DNA from: Pseudoroseomonas cervicalis ATCC 49957
GTDB lineage: Bacteria; Pseudomonadota; Alphaproteobacteria; Acetobacterales; Acetobacteraceae
Assembly (NCBI RefSeq): GCF_000164635.1
Contig: NZ_GG770777.1
Coordinates: forward strand, 382,926 to 440,785
Length of the DNA: 57,860 nucleotides
Direction of reading: 5' to 3'
Both the position numbers and the translations under genes were made by a program. Shown in pieces: positions 21,957 through 42,983 of the stretch (the stretch's first letter is position 1; the number at the start of each line of letters is the position of its first letter). The notes under the pieces are model-generated. The model was not told the origin of the DNA. It saw nothing but the letters and a program-made list of their open reading frames with translations, and searched no databases.

Positions 21957-22150
21957 ATGGCCAACACTGGACCAGCAAGGATCAGGTGACCATTCCGAAG
22001 CCAGCGCGCGATCTCCTGGGCATCATTGGCAGCGCAGTCGAGTTCGCCTGACGCCTGAGGGTCAGGTTCTACTCGCCCAGGCCATTGCTGCATCACGCCG
22101 GCAGATCTGCTTCGCGGCTGCGAGGGACTGCTGGTCCTGGTATGACCACG
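21957..22150 (+). pseudogene. AbrB/VapB-type antitoxin, frameshifted relic
   Basis: The ATG at 21957 follows a GGAGG and encodes MANT. After a frame change the sequence reads TSKDQVTIPKPARDLLGI and GSAVEFA, the SpoVT/AbrB swapped-hairpin signature of VapB antitoxins. A third frame then reads LTPEGQVLLAQAIAAS. At least two frameshifts break it, so it is non-functional. A PIN-domain fragment 50 bp later shows it was part of a vapBC pair. Confidence 0.65.
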
Positions 22151-22194
22151 AACCAGATCATGGCCTCGACGCGCAGCGAGGACTGAGAGCCCAT

Positions 22195-22278
22195 TTCGCA
22201 ACCCTGGTCGACGCCAACGTTCTGCTCGATCTCCCGACGGACGACCCGCACCAGGCGATGGTCGGGCCAGACCAGTAA
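22195..22278 (+). pseudogene. VapC PIN-domain toxin fragment
   Basis: FATLVDANVLLDLPTDDP is the start of a PIN-domain nuclease, containing the first catalytic Asp. The frame stops at 22276-22278, after fewer than 30 residues. The remaining catalytic acids are absent, so it cannot be active. It pairs with the broken VapB just upstream. Confidence 0.6.
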
Positions 22279-22351
22279 TCGCAGTTTTCGCAGCGAAAGC
22301 GGGACGGAAGTGGGCTGATGAGCGTGCGCGCCTGAAGGCAGGGCTGCACCG

Positions 22352-22853
22352 CTATCCCTGCTTGCGCAGTGATCGAATGAACCGGGGGCCGGTTTCGGCG
22401 AAGCCTGTAGCCCGGCAGAATTCGCACAAAGCTGGCGCATCCGGCGTGGTCATGATCTCCAGTTCACCGCAGCCGGCAACGCGCGCAGCCTGTGCAGCCG
22501 CCTTCACCAGGAGCCGACCGATTCCCTGGCGGCGCTCCTCGGGGCTGACCAGCAGCGTGCTGATCTGCGCCCTGGGGCGAGCCGCCTCGAGCGTGGGATA
22601 CCAATGCAACACTACGAGGCCGCTGGGCGGCCCCCCATTTCAGCGCCACCAGTGCCGTCGCGGAGGCTTGGCGCAATGCCACGAGCCGCTCTGCCAGATC
22701 GCGAGCATTGATGGCGTAGCCGGCCGTCGCGAGCAGGTCGGCAAGGCCAGGCGCCTCGGTGGCGTTGGCAGCGCGGATCTCCAAACCGTAGCGTGATGTC
22801 ACTCGTGCGGTCCACACATGTGGAGGGAGGTTAGCCCGGGTCAGCCACGGCAT
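22352..22853 (-). pseudogene. GNAT acetyltransferase, single frameshift
   Basis: The N-terminal frame (from 22853) reads LEIRAANATEAPGLADLLAT up to ATALVALKWG. The C-terminal frame (ending 22352) continues HWYPTLEAARPRAQISTLLV, SPEERRQGIGRLLVKAAAQA (acetyl-CoA-binding motif A) and a final helix. The two join at a run of six C (22631-22636, plus strand); removing one base restores a continuous protein. It could be a real inactivation, a slippage-prone switch or a sequencing error. Acetyltransferases of this kind modify small molecules or protein N-termini; the substrate is unknown. Confidence 0.7.
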
Positions 22854-22918
22854 GAAGCAGGGCCGCGTCCCGGTCCTAATCGGCCCCCCTTGAGCCAGGC
22901 CGAGGGTGAACAGCCAAC

Positions 22919-23467
22919 ATGGTCAGTACACGCATGTCGAGCCAGGGTGCCGGCGACGTGCTGGCCTCGCTGACCACGATGCAGTGGAACGTCCCGTCGA
23001 AGGCCTGGACCGGCGGCGCGACCATGGCGGACGCGTCGCTGAACCGGCGCATGACGGTGCGGCTCGGCCCGGGCGTGGCGTTCGCGCAGATCGGGATCAT
23101 CGGCTTCGACGGGCAGATCGAGCTCGAGGCGCTGCGGCTCTATGGCCTGCCGGAGGACGCGCCGGCGGTGCTCTATGGCTGCCCGTCGCTGCCGGCGGGG
23201 ACGCGCACGCTGGCGCTGGAGACCAGCTGGGACCTGCCGAGCCTCGGTCCTGGTGCGACGGCGAACGTTGACGTCACGGTGCCTGGCGCGCGGCGGGGCG
23301 ACTTCGCCGACGCCTCGCTCGACACCAGCAGCATCGCCTTCGTGCTCGACTGCCATGTGTGGTCGAACAACAGCGTGCGCGTGACGGCGCGGAACGTCAG
23401 CGCCTCGACGGTGGACCTCGCCGCGACGCCGCTGGCGGTACAGGTGGTGAAGCGGCGCATTCCTTGA
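22919..23467 (+). CDS. Phage-like hypothetical protein (tail or structural type)
   Basis: The 182-residue product has an N-terminal half without recognised features and a beta-rich C-terminal half: ATANVDVTVPGARRGDFADA, SIAFVLDCHVWSNNSVRVTA, RNVSASTVDLAATPLAVQVV. That last pattern is typical of small proteins found at the end of alphaproteobacterial prophage tail modules. The role is uncertain. A second ATG at 22934 is possible. It is the only hint of phage structural genes on the island. Confidence 0.6.
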   Translation: MVSTRMSSQGAGDVLASLTTMQWNVPSKAWTGGATMADASLNRRMTVRLGPGVAFAQIGIIGFDGQIELEALRLYGLPEDAPAVLYGCPSLPAGTRTLALETSWDLPSLGPGATANVDVTVPGARRGDFADASLDTSSIAFVLDCHVWSNNSVRVTARNVSASTVDLAATPLAVQVVKRRIP

Positions 23468-23763
23468 GCTTGAGAGAGCGCCGTAGCGGATAGGGGTGCG
23501 GCGACGTTGCCGCCCCCCTCGCTCTCACGCCCAGATCCCTTGGCCGGCCATATGGCGGCCGGCCTGGTGGGCTCCGCCCAACGCAACCGCGAGCGCACCA
23601 ACCAATCCGGCAAGTTCAGCGCGGCGGCAACCGGTGATGCCGACCAGCCAGCACGGATCGCAGCCACGGTCTTCCGCTCGAACGCTTCAGGAGAGCTCAG
23701 GCGCCGGTTCACATCGTTCACCATGATCACCTCCGGGCCCTTCACCCTATCAGAGGTGTCCGC
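23468..23763. other. Non-coding stretch
   Basis: No supported gene. Two copies of the palindrome GGCCGGCC, 7 bp apart, lie near 23541-23564 and could form a GC-rich hairpin after the phage-like gene. A minus-strand frame reading EAFERKTVAAIRAGW upstream of here has no recognised domain. Confidence 0.4.
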
Positions 23764-23945
23764 TCAGTCGGGATGGGCCCAGGCAAGGATTCCGGCGCGC
23801 GTCTGGTCGCTCATCTGTCCTGCGACGACCATCATGACGACCGGGCGGCCCAGGCCATCGCAGACGGCGTGGAGTCTGGAGTTCAGCCCACCCTTGGTGC
23901 GGCCGTTGCACCGATCAGGCGCGCCCTTTGAGGAGGTTGGCGGCG
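23764..23945 (-). pseudogene. IS5-family transposase fragment
   Basis: The minus-strand reading APDRCNGRTKGGLNSRLHAV, then CDGLGRPVVMMVVAGQMSD, is the central segment of an IS5-type transposase. It is truncated on both sides: the frame stops at 23764, and unrelated sequence precedes it. It marks the left boundary of the heat-resistance cluster, suggesting that transposition helped assemble the island. Confidence 0.65.
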
Positions 23946-24133
23946 GTGATGACGCACGGCGGCGTGACCATGGTGAGTGAAGCGAGCCGGTGCGCCCGCG
24001 CCTGGCGAACAATGGCGTGCCGCGGCCAAGTTTGCCTCTTTCGCGGGCGCACGGATGGGGGCATGCTTGCAGTGCTGAGGCGTCTTGGAACTTGAAATTC
24101 AGATCCAGGCGCACCCATCCGGAGTGGCTCCCT

Positions 24134-25258
24134 TTGCACGATGGTCGTTTCCTGTTCCGGACCCTGATCCTGACGGGTGCGGTGCTGCTCATGATGGCGG
24201 CCTGGCAGAGCATCCCGCTCATCCAGGCCGAACTCCTCGCCAGCCGGGCGGAGCCGCGCGCCGTCACTCCGCGCGGCGACCTCGCCGAGGATGAGCGCTC
24301 GACCATCGCGCTCTTCGAGCAGGCCCGCGGTTCGGTCGTCTTCATCGCCACCACCGAGCGGCTGGTGAACCCCTGGACGCGCAACGCGCTGCAGGTGCCG
24401 CGGGGCACCGGCTCGGGCTTCGTCTGGGACCATCTCGGGCATATCGTGACCAACGACCATGTCGTGGCCGGCGCCTCGGCCGCCGTGGTCCGCCTCGCCG
24501 ATGGGCGCGCCTACGACGCCGTCCTGGTCGGCACCAGCCCGGCGCATGACCTCGCCGTGCTGCGGATCGGGGTCGGCACCGGCCGGCCCGAGCCGCTGCC
24601 CATCGGCACCAGCCACGACCTCCGCGTCGGGCAGAAGGTCTTCGCCATCGGCAATCCCTTCGGCCTCGACTGGACGCTCACCACCGGCATCATCTCCGCC
24701 CTCAACCGCGAACTGCCGACCGAGACCGGGGCGGTGATCGAGCGCCTGATCCAGACCGATGCCGCGATCAATCCGGGCAATTCGGGCGGCCCGCTGCTCG
24801 ACTCCGCGGGCCGTCTGATCGGCGTGAACACGGCGATCTACAGCCCCTCCGGCGCCTCGGCCGGGATCGGCTTCGCGGTGCCGGTGGACACGGTCAACCG
24901 CGTGGTGCCGCGGCTGATCGCGCAGGGGCGCTACATCCGCCCCTCGCTTGGCATCCGCGCGGAGGAGCAGCTGAACGCGGCGCTCGCGGCGAGGCTCGGC
25001 ATCGAGGGGGTCTTCGTGCTCGACGTGGAGCCGGGATCGGCGGCGGAACGGGCCGGCATCCGGCCGGCGCGGCTGTCGCGCGAAGCCGGCTTCCGCACCG
25101 GCGACGTGATCCTCGCGATCGACGGGCGCCCGCTGCGCCGCGCGACGGAACTGCTGGCCGAACTCGATCGCCGCGCGCCGGGGGATGTCGTGACGCTCAC
25201 GCTCCTGCGGGACGGCGCGCGCCTCGACCTCACCGTCACACTGGACGCCGGCCGATGA
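24134..25258 (+). CDS. degP: DegP/HtrA-type serine protease of the heat-resistance cluster
   Basis: A 374-residue S1C protease. An N-terminal membrane anchor (FRTLILTGAVLLMMAAW) precedes a trypsin-like domain with H109 (TNDHVV), D139 (AHDLAVL) and S217 (PGNSGGP), and then one PDZ domain from about residue 275. It degrades or refolds damaged envelope proteins. The TTG at 24134 was chosen because GGAG lies 9 nt upstream and the anchor begins there; no in-frame ATG precedes it. It heads a tightly packed run with psiE (ATGA overlap), ftsH and clpG. A degP of this type is the terminal gene of described LHR/TLQ stress islands. Confidence 0.9.
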   Translation: MHDGRFLFRTLILTGAVLLMMAAWQSIPLIQAELLASRAEPRAVTPRGDLAEDERSTIALFEQARGSVVFIATTERLVNPWTRNALQVPRGTGSGFVWDHLGHIVTNDHVVAGASAAVVRLADGRAYDAVLVGTSPAHDLAVLRIGVGTGRPEPLPIGTSHDLRVGQKVFAIGNPFGLDWTLTTGIISALNRELPTETGAVIERLIQTDAAINPGNSGGPLLDSAGRLIGVNTAIYSPSGASAGIGFAVPVDTVNRVVPRLIAQGRYIRPSLGIRAEEQLNAALAARLGIEGVFVLDVEPGSAAERAGIRPARLSREAGFRTGDVILAIDGRPLRRATELLAELDRRAPGDVVTLTLLRDGARLDLTVTLDAGR

Positions 25259-25743
25259 AGGATCCCATGCCCCCGCTGCGCAGTCTCGCCCTGTGGCGCA
25301 CGCTCAGCCTCTATGAGCGTTTCGAGCAGGTGGTCGTCTTCGTCCTGACGCTGCTGATCGCGCTGATCGTCGTCGCCGCCCTGTGGAGCCTGCTGAAGCT
25401 CGTCGTGACATCCCTGCTGCTCGTGAACATCCTCGATCCCACCGATCCTGCGGTGTTCCAGGCGTTGTTCGGGGCGATCTTCACGGTCGTCATCGCGCTC
25501 GAGTTCAAGCGTTCGCTGCTGGTTGTGGTCGAGCGCCGCTTCGGCATCGTGCAAGTGCGTGCGGTTGTGATGATCGCCATGCTTGCCGTAGTGCGGAAGT
25601 TCATCATCCTCGATCTCGGCACGACCGAGCCGATGAAGCTGCTCGCCTTGGGCGCGGCGATGCTGGCGCTCGGCATCGTCTACTGGCTGGTGCGCGACCA
25701 GGACCGGCGCGAAGCCGAGGCCGCCGAGGAGCGGGCGTCATGA
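25255..25743 (+). CDS. psiE: PsiE-family membrane protein
   Basis: The 162-residue protein has four predicted membrane helices (FVLTLLIALIVVAALWSLL; the ILDPTDPAVFQALFGAIF region; VVMIAMLAVVRKFIIL; LLALGAAMLALGIVYWLV). ALEFKRSLL fits the PsiE (phosphate-starvation-inducible) family. The function is unknown, but psiE homologues are regular members of transmissible heat-resistance loci, here between degP and ftsH as expected. The start overlaps the degP stop; an ATG four codons later is possible. Confidence 0.85.
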   Translation: MKDPMPPLRSLALWRTLSLYERFEQVVVFVLTLLIALIVVAALWSLLKLVVTSLLLVNILDPTDPAVFQALFGAIFTVVIALEFKRSLLVVVERRFGIVQVRAVVMIAMLAVVRKFIILDLGTTEPMKLLALGAAMLALGIVYWLVRDQDRREAEAAEERAS

Positions 25744-25780
25744 CCGCGCAGCCTGTTGCGAACTGGTCTCGGGGGATGCC

Positions 25781-27648
25781 GTGAACAAGCAGCAGCAATA
25801 CAACACCTGGTACTGGATCGGCGCGCTGCTCCTGCTGCTGATGTTCCAGGGCTGGTGGCAGGGCGCGAGCGTCACCGAACGCATCCCCTATTCGCGCTTC
25901 CTCGAACTCCTCGAACAGGACCGCATCGCCGAGGTGCAGGTGCGGCCCGAGAGCATCCTCGGCCGCTACCGCGAGCCGATCGAGGGGCGCACGCATTTCC
26001 TGACCACGATCGTGCCCGAGGACCTCACCCGGCGGCTCGAGCAGTCGCGCGCGCGCTTCGACGGCACCATCACCAACACCTTCCTCAACAACCTCCTCTC
26101 CTGGGTGGTCCCGGTCATCGTCTTCTTCGCGCTGTGGATGTTCGTCTTCCGCCGCATCGCCGAGAAGCAGGGCTTCGGCGGGCTGATGTCGGTCGGCAAG
26201 TCCAAGGCGAAGGTCTATGTCGAGAAGGACACGGGTGTGACCTTCGACGACGTGGCCGGGATCGACGAGGCCAAGGCCGAACTCCGCGAGATCGTGGATT
26301 TCCTGAAGCAGCCGGAGAGATACGGCCGGCTCGGCGCGCGCATCCCCAAGGGCATCCTGCTGGTCGGCCCGCCGGGCACCGGCAAGACGCTGGTCGCCCG
26401 CGCCATCGCCGGCGAGGCGGGGGTCTCCTTCTTCTCGATCTCCGGCTCGGAATTCGTGGAGATGTTCGTGGGCGTGGGCGCCGCGCGCGTGCGCGACCTG
26501 TTCGAGCAGGCGCGCAAGGCCGCCCCCTGCATCATCTTCATCGACGAGCTCGATGCGCTCGGCAAGCGGCGCGGCGCGGGCGCCTTTGGCGGCGGCCATG
26601 ACGAGAAGGAGCAGACGCTCAACCAGCTGCTGACCGAGCTCGACGGCTTCGACCCGCGCGAGGGCATCGTGCTGCTCGCCGCTACCAACCGCCCCGAGAT
26701 CCTCGACCCCGCGCTGCTGCGCGCCGGGCGCTTCGACCGCCAGGTGGTGGTGGACCGCCCCGACAAGGGCGGTCGCGCCGCCATCCTGCGCGTGCATCTG
26801 AAGAAGGTGAAGCATGAGGGGCTCGATCTCGAGCAGATCGCGGCGCTCACGCCGGGCTTCTCGGGCGCGGAGCTTGCGAACCTCGTGAACGAGGCGGCGA
26901 TCCAGGCGACACGGCGCGGTGCCGAGGCGGTGACCATGGCCGACGTCACCGCCGCGATCGAGCGCATCGTCGCCGGCCTTGAACGCAAGGGGCGCGTGCT
27001 CAACCCGAAGGAGCGCGAGGCGGTCGCGTATCACGAGATGGGCCATGCGCTCGCCGCCGCCTCCCTGCCAGGGGCGGATCCGGTGCACAAAGTCTCGATC
27101 ATCCCGCGCTCGATCGGCGCGCTCGGCTACACCATGACGCGACCGACCGAGGACCGCTTCCTCATCACCCGCCGCGATCTGGAAAGCCGCATGGCGGTGC
27201 TGCTCGCCGGCCGCGCGGCGGAGGAGCTGGTGCTCGGCGAGATCTCGACCGGCGCGGCCGACGACCTCGCGCGCGTGACCGACATCGCGCGCCAGATCGT
27301 CACGCGCTTCGGCATGCATCCCGGGCTCGGCCAGGCGGTGCTGGAGCCGGAGCGGCAGAGCTTCCTCGGCGAGGGCGTACCGGCGCTGACGCCGCGCGAC
27401 TATTCGGAGGCGACCGCGCGCGAGGTGGATGTCGCGGTGCGCGAGCTGATCGACACCGCCTATCTGCGCGCCAAGGCGCTGCTCGCGGAGCGCCGGGTCG
27501 ATCTGGAGGCGGGCACGCGGCTGCTGCTCGAGCGCGAGACCATCACCCCGGATGACTTCCCGCCGCTGCGGCAGGGGGAGTCGGCGGGTGATCGGCGGAA
27601 CATCACGACGCCGAATGTCACGGCGAACCCAGCGGAGGAGAGGACCTG

Positions 27649-27649
<1 letters not shown>
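25781..27649 (+). CDS. ftsH: FtsH-type membrane AAA+ metalloprotease (island copy)
   Basis: A 622-residue protein with an N-terminal helix, a periplasmic domain, a second helix ([15 protein letters not shown]), the AAA+ module with Walker A GPPGTGKT at 196-203, [11 protein letters not shown] and the second region of homology [18 protein letters not shown]. The M41 peptidase has the zinc site HEMGH (H418, E419, H422); chromosomal FtsH usually has HEAGH. It extracts and degrades membrane and unfolded cytosolic proteins using ATP. The GTG start suits a natural FtsH N-terminus, and the stop overlaps the clpG start. Island FtsH copies are part of LHR/TLQ loci. Confidence 0.93.
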
Positions 27650-30465
<2,816 letters not shown>

Positions 30466-30479
30466 CCAGGAAACGGGGC

Positions 30480-31043
30480 ATGACGCGGGGCCTCTTTGCG
30501 CCCGGCAGGGCTCCGCCATCCAGCGGCGACGCGGTCGGCTCGCGCCGGGACGGCACGCATGTAGCCGTGCCACTTCTGCGGCCAGGCGGCGGCAGCCTCG
30601 CCGGGCCGTGGAGCAGACCGCCGGTGCGCATCTACCAGCCGAGCCGTTCGGTCCTTCAATCGGGATCCGGGCGCGGGGAGTGGCTGCTCGAATTCCCCCC
30701 ATCGGCGCCGCCACTCCGTGACCCGCTGACCGGCTGGATTGGCAGTGCCGATCCGCTCGCCCAACTCAGGCTGCGCTTTCCCGACAGGGAGAGCGCGGTG
30801 GCCTTCGCTGAACGGCATGGATGGCCGCATGAGGTGGTGGAGCCTGCCCCCCGCGGGCTTCGCTACCGGAGCTATGCCGAGCAGCTCCGGTGCGACCTCA
30901 GTGGCGCGATCGCCCGCGTGCAGCCCTGGCTTGCGCCGGGACCCCTGGCCACTGGGCCCGCGGAGGATCCCGTCGAGCGGGCCAGCCGCGACTCCTTTCC
31001 CGCCAGCGATCCCCCCGCATGGACTGGAACGCAGATCGCCTGA
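30480..31043 (+). CDS. NDUFS4-like (ETC complex I) protein with SFPASDPPAW tail
   Basis: A 187-residue protein. After a variable N-terminus, residues about 50-140 match the NDUFS4/ETC_C1 family: VRIYQPSRSVLQSG, GEWLLEFPP, DPLTGWIGSADPLAQLRLRF, AVAFAERHGW, YRSYAEQL. The C-terminus ends with DPVERASRDSFPASDPPAW, a short motif recurrent in small alphaproteobacterial stress proteins. NDUFS4 is an accessory subunit of respiratory complex I. In a stress cluster its role may be to stabilise complex I or something else; this is inference. It starts 14 nt after clpK, so it is probably in the operon. Confidence 0.75.
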   Translation: MTRGLFAPGRAPPSSGDAVGSRRDGTHVAVPLLRPGGGSLAGPWSRPPVRIYQPSRSVLQSGSGRGEWLLEFPPSAPPLRDPLTGWIGSADPLAQLRLRFPDRESAVAFAERHGWPHEVVEPAPRGLRYRSYAEQLRCDLSGAIARVQPWLAPGPLATGPAEDPVERASRDSFPASDPPAWTGTQIA

Positions 31044-31395
31044 GACGATCGCAGCCCCCGATAAACCGCCGCTTCTGCGCTGCGGCCCCGGCATCGGGTC
31101 TGCAACACCGGCGCGCTGGATCGTAGGCCGAAGGCCCGCCCACACGCACGCGAATGTCAGTATTGCACGCTGCGCATGACTGCCGCCTTGAAGACGCCCG
31201 CTGCCACTCCCCAATCCATCCCGTGAACGCCCAAGCGGGGTTCGCAGATTGACGGGTCTGGCCGTGACGGCAGACCGCTGGAGGTCCGCCGCGAACAGGG
31301 GACCATATCTGGCGCCGTGACCATGCAGGGCATGACACATGCCCCGGGCCGACTTCCGTCATGGCGGGCCGCGCGGGCCGCGAAAGGAGGAAGTC
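31044..31395. other. Intergenic region before the small heat-shock genes
   Basis: No gene is supported in these 352 bases. They contain the heat-shock promoter candidate at 31187-31215. The strong ribosome binding site AAAGGAGG at 31383-31390 sits just before the first hsp20, next to a GC-rich repeat GGGCCGCG (two copies from 31367). Confidence 0.5.
31187..31215 (+). promoter_or_regulatory. Candidate heat-shock (sigma-32-type) promoter
   Basis: CTTGAA (31187-31192) and CCCCAAT (31209-31215) are separated by 16 bp. This is close to the sigma-32 consensus CTTGAA-N13-15-CCCCAT, though the spacing is slightly long. It lies about 180 bp upstream of the first of three hsp20 genes, where a separate heat-inducible promoter would make sense. 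Confidence 0.4.
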
Positions 31396-31821
31396 ATGCC
31401 TTTGCCCATGACCGTCTATCCCGCCGATCCCTTCGCCCTGTTGCGCCGCGTCAGCGACGCGCTGGATCGCGTGGCCTTTGCCGGGCCGGCGCCGGCCTTT
31501 CCGGCGGTGAATGTCTGGCAGAATGACGAGGCAGCGGCGATCGTCGCCGAACTTCCCGGCGTCGGGCCGCAGGACATTGAGATCACCGTCAAGGAGGATG
31601 TCCTGACCATTTCGGGCGAGCGCCGTGCCCCCGAACTGCCCGAGCATGCAGAATGGCTCCGGCGCGAGCGTGCCTATGGCCGCTTCAGCCGCGCGATCCG
31701 CCTGCCCTTCCGGGTGGATCCGGACCAGGTGGACGCACGCTTCACCGACGGCGTGCTGCGGATCGCGGTGCGCCGCCCCGAGGCGGACCGCCCGCAGCGG
31801 ATCGCCATCAAGGCCGGCTGA
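31396..31821 (+). CDS. Small heat-shock protein Hsp20 (first of three)
   Basis: A 141-residue alpha-crystallin protein: N-terminal region about 35 residues, then the core VNVWQNDEAAAIVAELPGVG, DIEITVKEDVLTISGERR, a beta-6 loop region, FSRAIRLPFRVDPDQVDARF and the GVLRIAV element (a G-V-L variant of GVL.I). It binds unfolding proteins and keeps them ready for Clp and Hsp70 refolding. AAAGGAGG lies 6 nt before the ATG at 31396. It lacks a clear C-terminal IxI beyond RIAIKAG. The three tandem sHsps differ strongly in sequence, so they are not recent duplicates. Confidence 0.92.
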   Translation: MPLPMTVYPADPFALLRRVSDALDRVAFAGPAPAFPAVNVWQNDEAAAIVAELPGVGPQDIEITVKEDVLTISGERRAPELPEHAEWLRRERAYGRFSRAIRLPFRVDPDQVDARFTDGVLRIAVRRPEADRPQRIAIKAG

Positions 31822-31836
31822 AAGGAGGTGTCTGAG

Positions 31837-32223
31837 ATGACGATGGAACTCGCTTCCACCCCCGCCGCCGCCCCAGAAGCGGCCCGCAACACGCCCGTCT
31901 GGCGCCCGCTCGCCGACATCCAGCAGACGCGGGAGGGCATCGTGCTGATGCTGGAGATGCCGGGCGTCGCACCGGAGGATGTGGACATCACGCTGGAGCG
32001 CCGGGTGCTGACCATCCGCGGCCGGGGCCGCCAGCCCGAACCGGAGGCGCTGCGCGCGGTGCATCGGGAATACGAGCCCGGCGACTATGAGCGCGCCTTC
32101 ACGCTCTCGGAGGACTTCGACGAGAGCCGCATCGAGGCGACCGTGAAGGATGGCGTGCTGACGCTCAGGCTGCCGCGCGCGGCCGAGGCCCGGCCGCGGA
32201 CGATCCGCGTCAGCGCCGCCTGA
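31837..32223 (+). CDS. Small heat-shock protein Hsp20 (second of three)
   Basis: A short 128-residue alpha-crystallin protein with a minimal N-terminal arm, then WRPLADIQQTREGIVLMLEM, PGVAPEDVDITLERRVLTIR, YERAFTLSEDFDESRIEATV, KDGVLTLRLP and a C-terminal RTIRV (IxV-type) anchor. The AAAGGAGG ending the previous intergenic gap is 9 nt before the ATG at 31837; a GTG three codons upstream overlaps that site and is less likely. It is probably co-transcribed with the first sHsp (15-nt gap). Different sHsps can form mixed oligomers; that is inference here. Confidence 0.92.
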   Translation: MTMELASTPAAAPEAARNTPVWRPLADIQQTREGIVLMLEMPGVAPEDVDITLERRVLTIRGRGRQPEPEALRAVHREYEPGDYERAFTLSEDFDESRIEATVKDGVLTLRLPRAAEARPRTIRVSAA

Positions 32224-32243
32224 AGCAAGCAGGAGAACCTAGT

Positions 32244-32747
32244 ATGCAAATCAAAGATCTGATCCCCTGGGCTCGCAAGGGCGAGGCTTCCGAGGGCAAG
32301 ACGAACGAGACGAACCCCATCGCCTCCCTGCAGCGGGAAATGAACCAGGTGTTCGAGAACTTCTGGACCCGCTTCGGCCGGCCCTTCGGCACGCTCGACT
32401 GGCCCTGGGGCCAGTCGGAGGCGAAGTCCGACGTGGTGCAGACCGACAATGCGGTCGAGATCTCCATCGAACTGCCGGGGATGGAGATGAAGGACATCGA
32501 GGTCTCGGTCGCCGACGACATGCTGACCGTGAAGGGCGAGAAGCGGATCGAGCGGCAGGAGGAGAAGAAGGGCTACTATCTCTCCGAGCGCAGCTACGGT
32601 TCCGTCTATCGCGCGATCCCGCTGCCACCCGGCGTTGACGGCAGCAAGGCCGAGGCCTCGTTCAAGAACGGCGTGCTGACCCTCCGCCTGCCGCAGACGC
32701 CCGAGGCCCAGGCCAAGGTCCGGCGCGTCGAGGTGAAGGCCGGCTGA
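32244..32747 (+). CDS. Small heat-shock protein Hsp20 (third of three, Hsp16/IbpA-like)
   Basis: A 167-residue alpha-crystallin protein of the class with an extended N-terminus (NPIASLQREMNQVFENFWTR), then SDVVQTDNAVEISIELPGME, VADDMLTVKGEKRIERQEEK, YGSVYRAIPLPPGVDGSKAE, FKNGVLTLRLPQ and a Lys/Val tail. It is the most canonical of the three. AGGAG at 32230-32234 precedes the ATG. A strong hairpin after the stop probably ends this transcript. Confidence 0.93.
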   Translation: MQIKDLIPWARKGEASEGKTNETNPIASLQREMNQVFENFWTRFGRPFGTLDWPWGQSEAKSDVVQTDNAVEISIELPGMEMKDIEVSVADDMLTVKGEKRIERQEEKKGYYLSERSYGSVYRAIPLPPGVDGSKAEASFKNGVLTLRLPQTPEAQAKVRRVEVKAG

Positions 32748-32755
32748 CCGGCTGA

Positions 32756-32780
32756 GCAGGCTGCCCTCGCGGCAGCCTGC
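32756..32780 (+). terminator. Strong hairpin after the hsp20 trio
   Basis: GCAGGCTGCC, 5-nt loop CTCGC, GGCAGCCTGC: a perfect 10-bp stem 9 bp after the third hsp20 stop. There is no T tract, so it may act as a transcript-stabilising or imperfect terminator hairpin. The protease gene begins 45 bp later. Confidence 0.55.
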
Positions 32781-32824
32781 CCGTGCTTGACCGCGGCATC
32801 CGACCTGGCGCATCTGCACGGCGC

Positions 32825-33757
32825 ATGTCGCCCTCCCTGCTCCATCGCCTCAACAACCTCGCGCAGGCGGCGCTCATCCTCGCGGGGATGGGGCTGCTGG
32901 TGTGGCTGATGGTCCGGCTTGTCGCCGGACCGGACTTGGCACTGGTGGCGCTGCTGGTCGCGCTCGGGACCATGCTGGCGGCGCCGGCCGTGCCGCGGCG
33001 TGCGCTGCTTTCGGCCTATCGGGCGCGCCGCCTCGATGCCGCGGCCTTCCCGGACGGGACCGCCATGCTGGCGGCGATATCGCGCCGCGCGGCGCTGCCG
33101 CGAACGCCCGAACTCTGGTACGTCCCGAGCCGTCTGCCGAACGCCTTCGCCATGGGCCGGCCGGAGGACAGCGCCATCTGCGTGACCGATGGGCTGCTGC
33201 GGCTGCTGGACCGGCGCGAGCTCGCCGCGGTGCTCGCGCATGAGGTGGCGCACATCGCCCATCGCGACCTGTGGATCATGGGGCTGGCGGATGCGATGTC
33301 GCGCCTCGTCTCCATCGCCTCCTGGGTGGGCCAGCTCGTCCTGCTCCTGAACCTGCCGATGCTCGCGGCCGGTCTCGCGGTCGTGCCCTGGAGCGTGGTG
33401 CTGCTGCTGGTCTTCTCGCCGACCGTGATGGCGCTGTTGCAACTGGCCTTGTCGCGGTCGCGCGAATTCGACGCAGATCTCGGCGCCGCCCGCCTGACCG
33501 GCGATCCGGAGGGGCTGATCTCCGCGCTGCTCAAGCTCGAGCGTCGCACCGGCCGCTTCTGGGAGGAGATCTTCCTGCCTGGACGCCGGATACCGGAGCC
33601 TTCGCTGCTGCGCACTCATCCGCAAACCGACACCCGCGTGGCGCGGCTGCGCAGTTTGGTCGTGTCGCGGCAGGAGGGCTTCATGTCAGGAAAGGGCTGG
33701 CAGCCACCTACGCAGCCTGCCTATCCGAGATTTCACCGGAGTGGATATTTCTATTGA
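32825..33757 (+). CDS. HtpX-like M48 membrane metalloprotease
   Basis: A 310-residue protein with two N-terminal membrane helices (ALILAGMGLLVWLMV; LVALLVALGTMLAA), the zinc motif HEVAH (H139, E140, H143), two further hydrophobic segments and the third zinc ligand context LSRSREFDADLGAARLTG. HtpX proteases degrade damaged inner-membrane proteins together with FtsH. HtpX-like proteases are common partners in stress islands. ATG 32825 was chosen; a GTG at 32783 would add 14 residues. It is the last gene of the quality-control cluster. Confidence 0.88.
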   Translation: MSPSLLHRLNNLAQAALILAGMGLLVWLMVRLVAGPDLALVALLVALGTMLAAPAVPRRALLSAYRARRLDAAAFPDGTAMLAAISRRAALPRTPELWYVPSRLPNAFAMGRPEDSAICVTDGLLRLLDRRELAAVLAHEVAHIAHRDLWIMGLADAMSRLVSIASWVGQLVLLLNLPMLAAGLAVVPWSVVLLLVFSPTVMALLQLALSRSREFDADLGAARLTGDPEGLISALLKLERRTGRFWEEIFLPGRRIPEPSLLRTHPQTDTRVARLRSLVVSRQEGFMSGKGWQPPTQPAYPRFHRSGYFY

Positions 33758-34213
33758 TCTTGGCTGGAGGGTAAGTTTTCTGCGTTCAAATATTGATTCC
33801 CGCAGGTCTTCAGATGCGGCGTCGCTCTCGCAGCCTGGCACCATTTGGCCCAGAGAATTTCGTTTCCCGGTTCCCACCGCTGCTCCAGTCGATCTTCCGA
33901 ACCACATTCTCCGTTGTGACGTCACCCGGCGGAATCGCGGCCTTCCGCCACGTTTTCCGTGCGCACCTTGGGACTTCGAGTGGGGTTGCGAGCCCCGGCG
34001 TGCGTCTCTCTCCGGGCTTTTCTCTCCGGACCTCGGGACCTGCCCGATCCAGCCTACAAGCCTCAACCCGTTGTTCTGCTTCATCTTTGCGGTGTCGCAG
34101 GGCTTGGATATTCAGCAACTGCTTCGCTCGGGCGAACGCCTCGGACACCTGAATCCAGCACGCCTCAGGCGCCAGCCCCTCGAAATCTCCCGATCCTGTG
34201 TTACCCTTCCGGT
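33758..34213. other. Junction between the stress cluster and the restriction operon, no gene
   Basis: The stretch is 456 bases with no supported coding region and locally lower GC. It contains GCTCCAGTCGATCT (33882-33895), CTTCCGCCA (33942-33950) and TTTCTCTCCGGAC (34019-34031). The same three short blocks occur near 18445, 18838 and 18915, with the last two at identical 77-bp spacing. It is probably the relic of a repeated mobile-element end. The hsdR promoter should lie near its right end. Confidence 0.5.
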
Positions 34214-36988
34214 ATGGATGGCCAGGAGCGCGGGCGCCGCGACGCAGCCCCAGAGGCACGGGCGCGACAGATCATTGATGCCGGCCTCGCGGCCGCGGGC
34301 TGGATCGTCCAGGACCGCGCCGAAGTGAACCTGCACGCCGGCCCCGGCATCGCCGTGCGCGAGACCCCGACCGCCACAGGCCCCGCCGACTATCTGCTCT
34401 TCCTCGATGGCCGCGCCTGCGGCGTGCTGGAGGCGAAGCCCGAGGGCACGACCCTCTCAGGCGTCGTGCGTCAGGGCGACGACTACACGCGCGCAGCCCC
34501 GGCCAGGTATCCCGCCTGGGCCGACCCGCTGCCCTTCGTCTATGTCTCCTCGGGCGCCGAGACCCTGTTCCAGGACGCCCGCGACCCGCTCGCCCGCCCG
34601 CGGCGTGTCTTCGCCCTGCACCGGCCCGAGACGCTGTGCACCATGTTCGCGGCCGGCAGCAGCCTTCGCGCCCGTCTGAGCACCCTGCCGCCGCTCGACC
34701 CGACGCGCCTGCGCCCCTGCCAGGCCGAGGCCATCGCCGGCGTCGAAGCATCCCTAGCGCAGGGTAAGCCCCGCGCCCTGGTCTCCATGGCGACCGGCGC
34801 CGGCAAGACCTACACCGCCTGCGCCCTCACCCACCGCCTGCTGTCCCCGCCCGCCCGCATGGGCCGGGTGCTGTTCCTGGTGGACCGCGCCAACCTCGGC
34901 ACCCAGGCCAAGCGCGAGTTCGACGCCTTCGCCCCCGGCGGCGCTGGCCTGCTGTTCCGCGAGGAGTTCACGGTCCAGCACCTCCAGGGCAGCACCATCG
35001 ATCCCTCGGCCAGCGTCGTCATTTCCACCGTGCAGCGCCTCTACTCGGTCCTGCGCGGCCAGCCCTTCGATGACGCCGACGACGAGCGCGGCGGCTTCGA
35101 GCGCGCCGCCGACGACGCCGAGCGCCCCGTCACCTACAACCCCGCCATCCCGCCCGAGACCTTCGACCTCATCATCGTCGACGAGTGCCACCGCTCCATC
35201 TACGGCAACTGGCGCCAGGTGCTGGAATACTTCGACGCCTTCCTCGTCGGCCTCACCGCGACGCCCGGCCGCCACACAATCGGCTTCTTCCAGCAGAACC
35301 TGGTCAGCCAGTATCCCTTCGAGCGCTCCGTCGCCGACGGCGTGAACGTGGATTTCGAGGTCTGGCGCGTCCGCACCGAGGTCGGCGAGCGCGGCGGCAC
35401 CATCCCCGCCGGCTTCACCGTCCCGCACCGCGACAAGGAGACGCGCCGCCGCCGCCTCGCCGCGCTGGACGAAGACCTGCCCTACACTCCCGGCCAGTTG
35501 AACCGCGCCGTGGAGGTGCCGAACCAGATCCGCACTGTGCTGCAGGCCTATCGCGACGCCCTGCCAACCCAGCTCTTCCCCGGCCGGCAGGAGGTGCCGA
35601 AGACCCTCATCTTCTGCCAGTCCGACAGCCACGCAGAGACGGTGACCGAGATCGCGCGCGAGGTCTTCGGCGGCGATGCCCGCTTCGCCCAGAAGATCAC
35701 CTATCGCGCTACCGGCCGCAGCGGGCAGGAGCTGATCCAGGACTTCCGGACCGACCACCTGTTCCGCATCGCCACCACGGTGGACATGGTCGCCACCGGC
35801 ACGGACATCAAACCGCTGGAGGTCGTGATCTTCCTGCGCGACGTCCGCAGCGCCCAGTATTTCGAGCAGATGCGCGGCCGCGGCGCCCGCACCATCCTGC
35901 CCACCGACCTGCAACGCGCCACGCCCTCCGCCGAGCGGAAGGACCGCTTCATCATCGTGGACGCGGTCGGCGTGACGGAGAGCGTGAAGACGCCGACCGA
36001 GCCGCTAGAGCGCGACCGCACCCTCAGCCTGGAAGCTCTGCTGGAGCGCGTCGCCTTCGGCCACACCGACGAGGACACCTGCGCGACCCTTGCCGGCCGC
36101 CTAGCCCGCCTGGAACGCCGCCTGCCCGACCCCGCCCGCGCCGAGCTGAGGCAGACTGCCGGGGGTGCCACCCTGACCGACCTTGCCCGCGCCCTGGTGG
36201 ACGCCGCCGACCCCGTCCGCATCGAGGCCCGCGCGCGGGAGGCCGGCGCCGCGACGTCCGACGACGAAGCCGCATGGGACGCCGCCGCCGAGGCTCTGCG
36301 CGCCGAGGCCTGCCGGCCGCTCGCCGCAAACCCCGCCCTGCGCCGCACCATCCTGGAGGCGCAGCGCCAGAACGAAATCATCGTGGACGAGCTGACGGCC
36401 GACGCCGTGCTCTCCGCCGATTTCGACCTGAACCGCGCGACCGAGATCACCGAGCGCTTCGGCCGCTTCCTGGCGGAGGAAGCCGACCAGCTTGCCGCGC
36501 TGGCGATCCTCTACGCCCGGCCGCATGCGCAGCGCCGCCTGACCTACGCGATGCTGCAGGAGCTGCGCGCGGCCATGGCGCGCCCGCCCTGGCTGCTGGA
36601 CGACAAGGCGGTGTGGGCGTGCTACCGGCGCCTGCATGCGGGGCAGACCCGCGCGCCAGCCGGGCTACTGACCGACCTGGTGGGGCTGGTGCGCTACGCC
36701 ATAGGGGCGCGCGCGGTGCTGGCCCCCTTCGCGCCGGATGTGAACCGCAATTTCGAGCTATGGCTCGGCCGCGAGAAGAAGGCCGGGCGCGACTACACCG
36801 AGGCGCAGATGGAGTGGCTGCGGCTGATGAAGGACTGGGCGGCGAGCAATGTGGAACTGACGCTGGCCGATCTGCGCGAGGCCTCGGATTTCTCGTCGCG
36901 CGGCGGCACCGCGCGGGCGCGCGCGCTGTTCGGCGCGGAGCGGCTGCCGGCGCTGGTGGATGACCTGACCGATGCGCTGGTGGCGTGA
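34214..36988 (+). CDS. hsdR: Type I restriction enzyme R subunit (HsdR)
   Basis: A 924-residue motor-nuclease subunit. The N-terminal PD-ExK nuclease has D59 (PADYLLF), E73 and K75 (VLEAK). The helicase domain has Walker A ATGAGKT at 193-199, DECH at 323-326 and LVGLTATPG; later helicase motifs include TLIFCQSDSHAETV, TVDMVATGTDIK and MRGRGART. The C-terminal part binds the methylase core. It translocates and cuts unmethylated DNA. ATG at 34214 gives the natural N-terminus; the frame extends upstream without support. The order R-S-M is unusual compared with the common R-M-S or M-S-R. Confidence 0.94.
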   Translation: MDGQERGRRDAAPEARARQIIDAGLAAAGWIVQDRAEVNLHAGPGIAVRETPTATGPADYLLFLDGRACGVLEAKPEGTTLSGVVRQGDDYTRAAPARYPAWADPLPFVYVSSGAETLFQDARDPLARPRRVFALHRPETLCTMFAAGSSLRARLSTLPPLDPTRLRPCQAEAIAGVEASLAQGKPRALVSMATGAGKTYTACALTHRLLSPPARMGRVLFLVDRANLGTQAKREFDAFAPGGAGLLFREEFTVQHLQGSTIDPSASVVISTVQRLYSVLRGQPFDDADDERGGFERAADDAERPVTYNPAIPPETFDLIIVDECHRSIYGNWRQVLEYFDAFLVGLTATPGRHTIGFFQQNLVSQYPFERSVADGVNVDFEVWRVRTEVGERGGTIPAGFTVPHRDKETRRRRLAALDEDLPYTPGQLNRAVEVPNQIRTVLQAYRDALPTQLFPGRQEVPKTLIFCQSDSHAETVTEIAREVFGGDARFAQKITYRATGRSGQELIQDFRTDHLFRIATTVDMVATGTDIKPLEVVIFLRDVRSAQYFEQMRGRGARTILPTDLQRATPSAERKDRFIIVDAVGVTESVKTPTEPLERDRTLSLEALLERVAFGHTDEDTCATLAGRLARLERRLPDPARAELRQTAGGATLTDLARALVDAADPVRIEARAREAGAATSDDEAAWDAAAEALRAEACRPLAANPALRRTILEAQRQNEIIVDELTADAVLSADFDLNRATEITERFGRFLAEEADQLAALAILYARPHAQRRLTYAMLQELRAAMARPPWLLDDKAVWACYRRLHAGQTRAPAGLLTDLVGLVRYAIGARAVLAPFAPDVNRNFELWLGREKKAGRDYTEAQMEWLRLMKDWAASNVELTLADLREASDFSSRGGTARARALFGAERLPALVDDLTDALVA

Positions 36989-36990
36989 GC

Positions 36991-38433
36991 ATGGATGCTC
37001 TGCCGACTGAGGGGCTGCCGGCGGGCTGGGCGCACACAACGCTCGGCGAGGTCGCCGGCGAACCACGGGCCCGGGTCCCTGCCGATGCGAAGAGCAACCT
37101 GCCGTTTGTCGGCTTGGAGCACATCGCGCCGCACGCCTTGCGCCCGCATGGGTTCGGCCGCTTCGGTGACATGCGGAGTGCTGCGTCACCCTTCACGCCG
37201 GGCGACGTCCTCTACGCGCGGATGCGACCCTACTTGAACAAGGTCTGGCACGCGGATCGCGAGGGCGTTGCCTCTGCGGAGTTCCTGGTTCTCCCGCGAT
37301 CTGGTCGCGTGCACCCCGACTTTCTTGCGCTGCTTCTCCACCATCGGCCTTTTGTGGAGTTCGCGCGCCATGCGTCGTCGGGCGACCGGCCACGCGTCGA
37401 GTGGGCCGACATTTCCAAGTATCCCATCGCGCTGCCACCACGAGCCGAGCAGGACCGCATCGTCACCGCGGTGAACGCGCTGTTCGACGAGGTGGAGGCC
37501 GGCGAAGCCTCGCTGGCGCGGGCGCGCGAGGGTCTGACGCAGTTCCGCACCAGCCTCCTCCACGCCGCCTGCACCGGCGCCCTCACCGCCGATTGGCGCA
37601 CTGCCAACCCGACGAATCAAACCGCTGCCGATCTGCTGGCCGAAGTCGCGGCGTGGCGCGCCGCGCGAGGATTGAAGCCGCTCGCCGCAGCAAGCGCTGT
37701 AGGTACGGCGACGCTGCCGACCCTGCCGGAAGGCTGGATCTGGGCGTCGCTGCCGCAGCTCGGCGAGTTCGGCCGCGGCAAGTCGAAGCACCGCCCGCGC
37801 GACGACGCACGACTCTACGGTGCTGCGATGCCCTTCATCCAGACTGGAGAGGTCAGCCGCAGCCGGGGTCGAATCACATCCTGGTCCAGGATGTATAGCG
37901 ATTTCGGCGTTGCGCAGAGCAAGGTCTGGCCCGCCGGGACCGTGTGCATCACCATCGCAGCGAACATCGCCGCTTCGGGAATCCTGACGTTCGACGCGTG
38001 CTTCCCCGACAGCGTCGTGGGCTTGGTCACGCCGCACGCAGCGCTTGCACGCTATGTCGAGCTGTTCATGCAGACGGCGCGTGCCAACCTGGAAGCTTAC
38101 GCTCCGGCTACAGCACAGAAGAACATCAACCTAGAAATTCTCAACACCGTCGCCGTGCCCTTGCCTCCCCTTATGGAGATCGAGGCCATCGTTCGTGCCG
38201 TCGACGATGTGCATACGGAGGCCGTCGAGCCAGTGGGCACAATTGCTGACGGCTCCGCCCTCCGCCAATCCATCCTCCACGCCGCCTTTACCGGCCGCCT
38301 CGTCCCGCAAGACCCGGCCGACGAGCCCGCCGCCGTCCTGCTCGCGCGCCTCCGCGCCGCGCCGGCTGTGGCACGCCGTTCCCGTGCGCGTCGCACCTCA
38401 ACGCAGCCCGACCTGATCGAGACACCAGCATGA
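36991..38433 (+). CDS. hsdS: Type I restriction-modification specificity subunit (HsdS)
   Basis: The 480-residue product has two target-recognition domains, each followed by a conserved helix: LPAGWAHTTLGEVAG, then RPRVEWADISKYPIALPPRA and EQDRIVTAVNALFDEVEAGE; the second half is LPEGWIWASLPQLGEFGRGK, TAQKNINLEILNTVAVPLPP and a matching helix. The two domains define a bipartite recognition sequence that cannot be read from the protein. A GTG at 36985 overlaps the hsdR stop and is an alternative start. The stop overlaps the hsdM start (ATGA). Confidence 0.93.
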   Translation: MDALPTEGLPAGWAHTTLGEVAGEPRARVPADAKSNLPFVGLEHIAPHALRPHGFGRFGDMRSAASPFTPGDVLYARMRPYLNKVWHADREGVASAEFLVLPRSGRVHPDFLALLLHHRPFVEFARHASSGDRPRVEWADISKYPIALPPRAEQDRIVTAVNALFDEVEAGEASLARAREGLTQFRTSLLHAACTGALTADWRTANPTNQTAADLLAEVAAWRAARGLKPLAAASAVGTATLPTLPEGWIWASLPQLGEFGRGKSKHRPRDDARLYGAAMPFIQTGEVSRSRGRITSWSRMYSDFGVAQSKVWPAGTVCITIAANIAASGILTFDACFPDSVVGLVTPHAALARYVELFMQTARANLEAYAPATAQKNINLEILNTVAVPLPPLMEIEAIVRAVDDVHTEAVEPVGTIADGSALRQSILHAAFTGRLVPQDPADEPAAVLLARLRAAPAVARRSRARRTSTQPDLIETPA

Positions 38434-39881
38434 GCGATACCGAGAACGTCCTGACCGCAAAGGTCTGGAACCTCGCCCATGTGATGAACAACGCCGGCGT
38501 CGGCTCCGGCGACTATGTGGAGCAGGTCACCTATCTGCTGTTCCTCAAGCTCGACACGGAGCGGGAGGAAGACGGCTTGCCCTCCCTGCTGCCGGAGGAA
38601 TGCCGTTGGGCGCGCCTCGCCGCCCTCTCCGGCCGCGAACTCGCGCAGCACTACGCTCGCACGCTGGAGACGCTCGCTGGCCAGCCCGGGCTCGTCGGCA
38701 CCATCTACACCCGCGCCCGCAACACTATCGAGGAACCGGCCCACCTGCACCGCCTGGTGCGGATGATCGGCGCGGAGAACTGGTCGGGGTTCGGCGTCGA
38801 CGTGAAGGGCGCGATCTACGAGAGCCTGCTGGAACGCACCGCCTCCGACACCAAGTCCGGCGCCGGCCAGTATTTCACCCCGCGCCCCGTCATCCAGGCC
38901 TGTGTTGAGGTGGTGGACCCCAGGCCCGGCCAGACCATTTGCGACCCCGCCTGCGGCACCGCCGGTTTCCTCCTCGCCGCCTTCGAGCACATGCGCCAGA
39001 AGCCCGAGGCGCGCGACCGCGAGACGGGGCGCAGGATGCGGGAGGAAGGCTTCACCGGCTACGACATCGTCGCCGGCGTCGCGCGGCTCGCCGCCATGAA
39101 CCTCTACCTGCATGGCCTCGGCCGCGCCGACGTCACGCCGATCCACCGCGCGGACGCGCTGCTGGCCGATCCGGGCCGGCGCTGGGACGTGATCCTGACC
39201 AACCCGCCCTTCGGCCGCCGCCAGTCCATCCAGGTCTTCACCGGTGACGGCGAGGCGGAGACGGAGCGCGAGGACTACCAGCGCCCCGACTTCAATGTCA
39301 CCACCGGCAACAAGCAGCTCAACTTCGTCCAGCACATCATGACCGTGCTGGCGCCGGGCGGCGTCGCCGCCGTGGTGCTGCCCGACAACGTGCTGTTCGA
39401 GGGCGGCGCCGGCGAGAAGATCCGCCGCCGCCTGCTCGACGAGTTCGAGTGCCACACCCTGCTGCGCCTGCCGACCGGCATCTTCTATCGCCAGGGCGTG
39501 AAGGCGAACGTGCTGTTCTTCGAGGCCCGCCCGCGCCGCAAGACCCCCTGGACCGAGGCCCTCTGGGTCTACGACCTCCGCACCAACAAGCGCTTCACCC
39601 TGAAGGAACGCCCTCTGCGCGACGCCGACATGGCGGAGTTCGTGAGCCTGGCGAAGCTCTCCGACCGCGCGAAGCGCCAGGAGACGGAGCGCTTCAAGCG
39701 CTTCACCTACGCCGAGCTGGCCGCACGCGAGAAGCTGGACCTGAACCTGACCTGGCTGCGCGAGGACGGCGCCACCGACCCCGCCAGCCTGCCGCCGCCC
39801 GCCGAGATCGCCGCCAGCATCGCCGAGGACCTGGAGACGGCGTTGGCGCGCTTCCGCGCCGTTGCGGCCCGCCTATCGTGA
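38430..39881 (+). CDS. hsdM: Type I restriction-modification N6-adenine methylase (HsdM)
   Basis: The 483-residue methylase has an N-terminal helical domain (VWNLAHVMNNAGVGSGDYVE), the SAM motif CDPACGTAGF at 171-180 and the catalytic NPPF at 258-261. It protects host DNA and, with HsdS, forms the site-recognition core. The start overlaps hsdS by 4 bp. The CHAT protein gene starts 28 bp after its stop on the same strand, with no terminator visible between, so the four genes may form one transcript. Confidence 0.95.
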   Translation: MSDTENVLTAKVWNLAHVMNNAGVGSGDYVEQVTYLLFLKLDTEREEDGLPSLLPEECRWARLAALSGRELAQHYARTLETLAGQPGLVGTIYTRARNTIEEPAHLHRLVRMIGAENWSGFGVDVKGAIYESLLERTASDTKSGAGQYFTPRPVIQACVEVVDPRPGQTICDPACGTAGFLLAAFEHMRQKPEARDRETGRRMREEGFTGYDIVAGVARLAAMNLYLHGLGRADVTPIHRADALLADPGRRWDVILTNPPFGRRQSIQVFTGDGEAETEREDYQRPDFNVTTGNKQLNFVQHIMTVLAPGGVAAVVLPDNVLFEGGAGEKIRRRLLDEFECHTLLRLPTGIFYRQGVKANVLFFEARPRRKTPWTEALWVYDLRTNKRFTLKERPLRDADMAEFVSLAKLSDRAKRQETERFKRFTYAELAAREKLDLNLTWLREDGATDPASLPPPAEIAASIAEDLETALARFRAVAARLS

Positions 39882-39909
39882 GGGCGGTCCCTTTGGCAGC
39901 CCGCGCGCG

Positions 39910-42889: not shown

Positions 42890-42904
42890 GTGGCGGAGGG
42901 GATG
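42890..42904 (-). other. attR: island right attachment core
   Basis: GTGGCGGAGGGGATG is identical to attL and forms the 3' end of tRNA-Ser (CATCCCCTCCGCCA read on the minus strand). The tRNA remains intact because the element supplied or preserved its 3' end. Confidence 0.8.
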
Positions 42905-42983
42905 GGATTCGAACCCACGAAACGGGTTATCCCCGTTTAACGGTTTAGCAAACCGCCGCCTTCGGCCACTCGGCCACCCCTCC
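42891..42983 (-). tRNA. tRNA-Ser(GCT)
   Basis: The minus strand folds as a class II tRNA: acceptor GGAGGGG (from 42983) pairs with CCCCTCC, D arm GGCCGAGTGGCCGAAGGC, anticodon stem GCGGT/ACCGT with loop TTGCTAA (anticodon GCT at 42949-42947), long variable arm, T arm GTGGGTTCGAATCCCAT, discriminator G and encoded CCA. It decodes AGC/AGU. It is the integration target of the island. Confidence 0.95.

Follow-up and report, generated by a model that had tools for sequence, protein, structure and literature searches.

A gene whose product has the fold of an accessory subunit of respiratory complex I lies inside a heat-resistance operon of Pseudoroseomonas cervicalis ATCC 49957, and the question is what such a protein does there. 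Two answers had been offered by a first-pass annotation of the locus: protection of complex I under heat, or a new role in the quality-control network. The question was addressed in the window (the whole 57,860-nucleotide stretch of DNA analyzed) and in surveys of other genomes, whose genomes and loci carry G and L numbers below.

A tailed NDUFS4-like protein in a heat island

The 187-residue product matched Pfam PF04800 (2.5e-23; 82.6 bits against a curated cut-off of 31.9), and no NCBIfam model was found for it. Its top PDB match by phmmer was 8qby_Q (9.5e-21), chain Q of Paracoccus denitrificans complex I, and the same chain was the top Foldseek match of an AlphaFold2 model (E 1.5e-8, 47% identity in the alignment). 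Complex I entries made up 42 of the 44 Foldseek matches at E ≤ 0.001; the other two, the bacterial proteins 2lju and 2jya, were matched by sequence too. Model confidence is moderate (mean pLDDT 68.5), with ten-residue blocks scoring 68–96 over residues 41–140 and 51–63 in the tail. Pfam, phmmer and Foldseek all agree on the NDUFS4 fold originally proposed.

The protein ends in DPVERASRDSFPASDPPAWTGTQIA, so that the SFPASDPPAW-type tail first noticed from the sequence alone is indeed C-terminal. Among ten aligned homologs, with identity down to 41%, the tail was near-invariant and the linker before it freely variable. Compared with the homolog at locus L043, from another genus of the same family, dN/dS was 0.35 overall, and by part, with few codons in the short ones, it was 0.20 for the domain, 0.17 for the tail, 0.64 for the N-terminus and 0.56 for the linker. 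Constraint of this kind argues against a chance open reading frame. The coordinates first given proved exact, and the gene does lie between clpG/K and hsp20 genes: 14 bp separate the Clp stop from the NDUFS4-like gene, and three Hsp20 genes follow downstream (Table 1).

Table 1. Features of the tailed gene and the surrounding heat island (window coordinates)
Feature	Position	Strand	Evidence
DegP-like trypsin-PDZ protease	23990..25258	+	Pfam
PsiE family protein	25255..25743	+	Pfam
FtsH-like protease	25781..27649	+	Pfam
ClpK/ClpG-like AAA+ disaggregase, 938 aa	27649..30465	+	Pfam
AGGAAA, ribosome-binding-site-like, 6 bases 5' of ATG	30468..30473	+	inference from sequence
NDUFS4-like CDS with C-terminal tail, 187 aa	30480..31043	+	ATG ORF, Pfam, dN/dS
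NDUFS4 (PF04800) domain, residues 49–137	30624..30890	+	Pfam, phmmer, Foldseek
Linker, residues 138–162, variable in length and sequence	30891..30965	+	alignment, dN/dS
Conserved tail DPVERASRDSFPASDPPAWTG, residues 163–183	30966..31028	+	alignment, motif surveys, dN/dS
Hsp20 a	31339..31821	+	Pfam
Hsp20 b	31828..32223	+	Pfam
Hsp20 c	32244..32747	+	Pfam
M48 (HtpX-like) protease	32783..33757	+	Pfam

The island holds the ClpK/ClpG and Hsp20 genes typical of tLST islands together with FtsH, PsiE, DegP and HtpX-like genes, and its ClpK/ClpG-like protein was 76% identical to that of an E. coli tLST locus over the tblastn match. Rfam gave no match at the gathering threshold in window 22000–36000, and a sigma-70 promoter scan saw 0 sites against 0.7 expected. 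Upstream of the island lies the large subunit of a phage terminase (20131–21846), a sign of prophage sequence; a transposase remnant suspected at 23764–24453 on the minus strand was dropped, as Pfam returned nothing. Downstream are type I restriction-modification genes (R, S and M; 33959–39881), directly followed by a CHAT-domain protein (39862–42201), and a tRNA-Ser (42891–42983).

Recurrence, relatives and probable transfer

tLST islands are mobile elements that confer strong heat and chlorine tolerance, and alphaproteobacterial versions, including one in Siccirubricoccus, are already in print, according to passages of a tLST review (PMC8290217). The window island resembles them in its ClpK-like, Hsp20, FtsH, PsiE, HtpX-like and DegP-like genes and in having mobile, plasmid-borne relatives. 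It differs in that tblastn with Ciceribacter queries detected no HdeD, orf11, Trx or Kef (KefB) gene less than 10 kb from the tailed gene (E ≤ 1e-6, a search that a divergent copy could escape). It differs further in adding the NDUFS4-like protein, which goes unnamed in the review's passages on island genes; the word NADH is absent from its main text (PMC8290217). Literature searches for NADH dehydrogenase with clpG/clpK heat-resistance loci, and for the letters of the tail motif, found nothing in the text of the papers searched, though a figure or supplement could show the gene. In one E. coli tLST locus the protein was undetectable (best tblastn E 0.26). The supposed absence from enterobacterial LHR thus stands for this locus and for the review's gene list, but not for Enterobacter plasmids, two of which (L056, L057) carry truncated remnants of the gene. 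The hypothetical protein that precedes the gene is likewise left there as a truncated remnant, and no Clp, Hsp20 or FtsH gene was found within either stretch.

PF04800 was present in 82 of 100 genomes of the window's family, with more than one match in eight, P. cervicalis included; the neighborhoods of these extra copies were examined up to 10 kb on each side. A scan of named genomes gave at least 36 loci. Of the 45 loci in which the tail follows the NDUFS4 domain, 44 had Clp, Hsp20 or FtsH genes within 10 kb (Clp 38/45, Hsp20 39/45, FtsH 32/45); the set includes near relatives and one contig counted as two loci (L085 and L102). In contrast, none occurred within 10 kb of 21 canonical NDUFS4 genes, comprising 20 fetched as controls and L105, with canonical sequences mostly from the window's family. 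The counts leave out L180, L175 and L186 (repeats of L080, L084 and L048, respectively) and loci below 5 kb, and treat the Enterobacter remnants apart from both groups. The one exception among tailed loci (L183) lies with HdeD, orf11 and rhomboid genes, which belong to this kind of island. Untailed, non-canonical NDUFS4-like copies had heat genes within 10 kb in 8/10 cases; no Clp, Hsp20 or FtsH was found within that distance of the remaining two (L047, L173). Association with ClpG and small heat-shock protein genes, on whose recurrence the original proposal had staked itself, is therefore recurrent, and the tailed NDUFS4-like protein is a real component of tLST-like islands.

Plasmid carriers were found in Ciceribacter, Shinella, Agrobacterium, Methylorubrum, Paracoccus, Roseomonas, Limimaricola, Aestuarium, Caulobacter and Acinetobacter. 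On NC_012811.1 of the laboratory strain Methylorubrum extorquens AM1, ClpK spans 864402–867293 and the tailed protein about 870024–870575. All 15 plasmid records whose ClpK C-terminal half is at least 80% identical to that of Ciceribacter carry the tailed protein, and by this measure no further record reaches 80%; by another ClpK identity count, 16 plasmid records reach at least 80%, 15 of them among the matches listed. The next C-terminal half, from Sinorhizobium fredii NGR234 (77.5%), is absent from the 60 of 64 tailed-protein matches listed, and more distant ClpK plasmid records mostly lack the tailed protein. None of 1105 Klebsiella records with a ClpK match appears among the same 60 of 64, compared with at least six of 44 Acinetobacter records. 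Two of the six Acinetobacter plasmid carriers have a broken gene, and two of the islands were examined in detail. Carriage is thus not limited to Alphaproteobacteria, given the Acinetobacter plasmids and the Enterobacter remnants.

Some tailed loci show further genes. A hypothetical protein of 206–234 residues lies directly 5' of the tailed gene (L052, 13319–13939; L050, 17241–17945), with relatives in 17/45 tailed loci; the L052 protein had no Pfam match above cut-off. Of the four PF04800 genes in genome G059, three each lie in a heat-gene neighborhood of their own (L038, L039 and L040). In Rhodobacterales (L098, L100, L101 and L102, near 16400–17100) a second, untailed NDUFS4-like gene lies ~6 kb downstream of the tailed gene and extends ~125 residues past the domain.

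The tail pattern FPAxDPPxW was found in 0/12 congeners, and the island was therefore probably acquired as an accessory element. Clp is 99% identical between the window and L043, whereas the NDUFS4-like proteins share 72%. Over window 27649–31043, dS was 0.033 for Clp against 0.465 for the adjoining NDUFS4-like gene, and on these values the island looks like a recombination mosaic. Acinetobacter domains are near-identical to the Roseovarius atlanticus copy (L096), which points to transfer between classes.

A tail carried by several proteins

The portability of the tail is the most surprising part of the analysis. As a DNA pattern, FPAxDPPxW occurred at 31 places in 27/299 genomes of the order, 13 places in 11/289 of the class and 7 places in 7/398 of the phylum; the samples overlap, and P. 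cervicalis is in all three. The reversed pattern, as control, occurred at 0, 1 and 2 places, respectively. The order's 31 places comprise 17 NDUFS4-like genes, one ClpK and 13 other or chance readings. In the ClpK case (L171, G003:C17, 9128–9220) a SFPASDPPAW tail lies at the C-terminus, with Hsp20 and HdeD genes adjoining. Genome G003 has no NDUFS4 paralog, PF04800 matching it once, elsewhere, in a canonical gene.

In Azospirillum brasilense the tail is found on the N-terminus of GrpE, within an island ordered GrpE-DnaK-ClpB-NDUFS4-Hsp20, where the NDUFS4-like gene is untailed and separated from ClpB by one small gene. The N-terminus of a second GrpE carries it too. At L048 the motif lies 5' of the NDUFS4 domain in a gene beside GrpE, DnaK and DnaJ, and at L073 a small ORF carries it directly ahead of an untailed NDUFS4-like gene, where the stretch has no heat genes. 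Other carriers are a ribose-phosphate pyrophosphokinase, an SDR oxidoreductase and several small proteins, and the motif was also seen in metagenome-assembled genomes named Planctomycetes and Acidobacteria. The ribose-phosphate pyrophosphokinase (L076, 8050–9084) ends in SFPASDPP.W and is preceded by universal stress protein and metal ATPase genes; a similar-looking protein occurs in L136. No Pfam or NCBIfam model scored above cut-off for the window tail alone or for the small proteins that carry the tail at L078 and L077.

A common tail on heat-shock helpers and other proteins suggests a putative shared docking signal. Many bearers have no heat gene nearby: of the 13 order-survey places outside NDUFS4-like and Clp genes, some of which may be chance readings, 0 had a heat-shock gene within 1.5 kb, and none was found in ~10 kb on each side at L182 and L184. 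The tail's partner therefore need not belong to quality control and may be more general.

Head, tail and candidate roles

Some 62 kb from the tailed gene, the P. cervicalis contig carries another PF04800 gene, which lacks the tail. In a tree of 98 domains, with few columns for many rows and a bootstrap not quite settled, canonical copies fell on one side of a branch (99/78; 98% of bootstrap trees) and another branch (99/99) set apart the plasmid type (type B), while the window's type (type A) was not a clean clade (2 changes). Recent duplication of the organism's own NDUFS4 is out, since in the tree its canonical copy groups with the one from a congener (L134).

The 48 canonical sequences share 39 conserved columns; type A (12 sequences) retains 19 of them and type B (28 sequences) retains 14. 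Losses cluster at the C-terminus, where the invariant N and F are found in 0/40 tailed sequences, R in 1/40 and the final T and H in 0/40; the C-terminal coil lacks these residues, invariant in canonical copies, and the tailed sequences instead run on past the domain into linker and tail. Type A mostly keeps R-I, QSG and the Y-A of SYA, and in the C-terminal region keeps Y-A and mostly W. Type B lacks R and, in QSG, most of the Q and G, and its N-terminal strand is altered. In P. denitrificans, as described in passages of a structural study, the NDUFS4 coil binds where NDUFS1, NDUFV1 and NDUFV2 meet, and it is through the sheet and helix that the N-module is anchored to NDUFS3 (PMC11522691). 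Since the losses are coil residues and it is sheet and helix that contact NDUFS3, the head may retain one contact surface and not the clamp. The window protein thus shares domain and fold with P. denitrificans NDUFS4 (8qby chain Q), and differs in its heat-island setting, its own tree place, its lost latch residues, its linker and SFPASDPPAW tail, and its coexistence with a canonical copy in the same genome.

Two constrained parts, a loose linker and a tail that changes hosts among chaperone-island proteins argue for an adaptor architecture. We therefore propose, with a probability of about one half, that in alphaproteobacterial ClpK-type islands the tailed protein is a two-part adaptor of NDUFS4-fold head and docking peptide. 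The head would be a divergent NDUFS4 copy that has kept the fold and lost key residues of the C-terminal clamp coil. The tail would dock on a partner common to the chaperone and disaggregase network (Clp, GrpE-DnaK and small heat-shock proteins), so that the adaptor would bring a client to the machinery, possibly the peripheral arm of complex I. Of the two roles first offered, the one in the quality-control network fits better than complex I protection, since the tail recurs on a ClpK and on GrpE. Against the adaptor stand the many tailed proteins without a heat-shock gene nearby, the untailed non-canonical copies L047 and L173 without heat genes, and the rarity of the tail on Clp itself (one of 40 distinct Clp C-termini listed, ClpB included).

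Two versions of the adaptor differ in the client. In the first, the NDUFS4 fold would have been turned entirely to a new use, handling a non-respiratory client or acting as a chaperone scaffold, with complex I as ancestry only. This is a credible if tentative option: latch residues are lost, the type B N-terminal strand is changed, the tree place is separate, and the gene is carried by Acinetobacter and has left traces on Enterobacter plasmids. Against it, most of R-I, QSG and the Y-A of SYA is still present in the window's own type A.

In the second version, which spells out the complex I protection first suggested, the head would sit on the junction of N-module and Q-module in heat-damaged complex I while the tail recruits Clp, FtsH or small heat-shock proteins, as the bacterial equivalent of N-module turnover in mitochondria, for which we know of no adaptor of the NDUFS4-like kind. 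We regard this as possible and on the unlikely side. The retained fold and core residues speak for it, as does the anchoring of the N-module to NDUFS3 by sheet and helix (PMC11522691). Mitochondrial ClpXP offers a precedent that makes it sensible, since this AAA+ Clp machine is reported to remove and degrade damaged parts of the N-module (PMC7118099), which NDUFS4 helps to anchor; the window island is a candidate for such handling of complex I. NuoF family members, found with a canonical-scoring PF04800 match in 21/21 genomes tested, are also as expected, although this result does not discriminate between readings. The latch N-F is lost in 40/40, type B has lost R and most of the QSG loop and altered its N-terminal strand, and PF04800 is usual in the family anyway (82/100). 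Acinetobacter carriers weigh against it as well, as a NuoG loop may fill their NDUFS4 site by analogy with E. coli, where it does so (PMC11522691). The most specific form, in which D.V.EAS.ESFPASDPPAW would be an undescribed portable quality-control docking signal on ClpK, GrpE and NDUFS4-like heads and the heads would deliver heat-damaged complex I to the disaggregase, is a long shot.

Outside the adaptor reading, the protein could be a passenger, hitch-hiking on the island with no role in heat resistance. Its non-detection in the E. coli tLST examined and its 72% identity between window and L043, against 99% for Clp, are in line with this, but head and tail are under constraint and the linkage is kept over families and orders, making a passenger improbable. 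A heat-stable spare NDUFS4, standing in for the canonical one in complex I when temperatures are high, would have the right fold and lie among the right genes, assuming heat induction; we consider it very unlikely, as 40/40 tailed sequences lack the coil N-F and T-H and continue into linker and tail, and their tree place is separate. Least probable is a degradation signal, for although the tail is C-terminal in 45/46 tailed NDUFS4-like loci, it occurs at N-terminal or internal positions as well (GrpE, L048), and the number of residues after C-terminal tails varies, unlike a C-degron.

For the two-part adaptor, the common tail is a directly testable handle on how heat-island machines recruit partners. 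A recurrent island component with a respiratory-subunit fold would tie protein rescue to respiration and, should the heads deliver damaged complex I to the disaggregase, would represent in bacteria the kind of N-module turnover that mitochondria are known to have.
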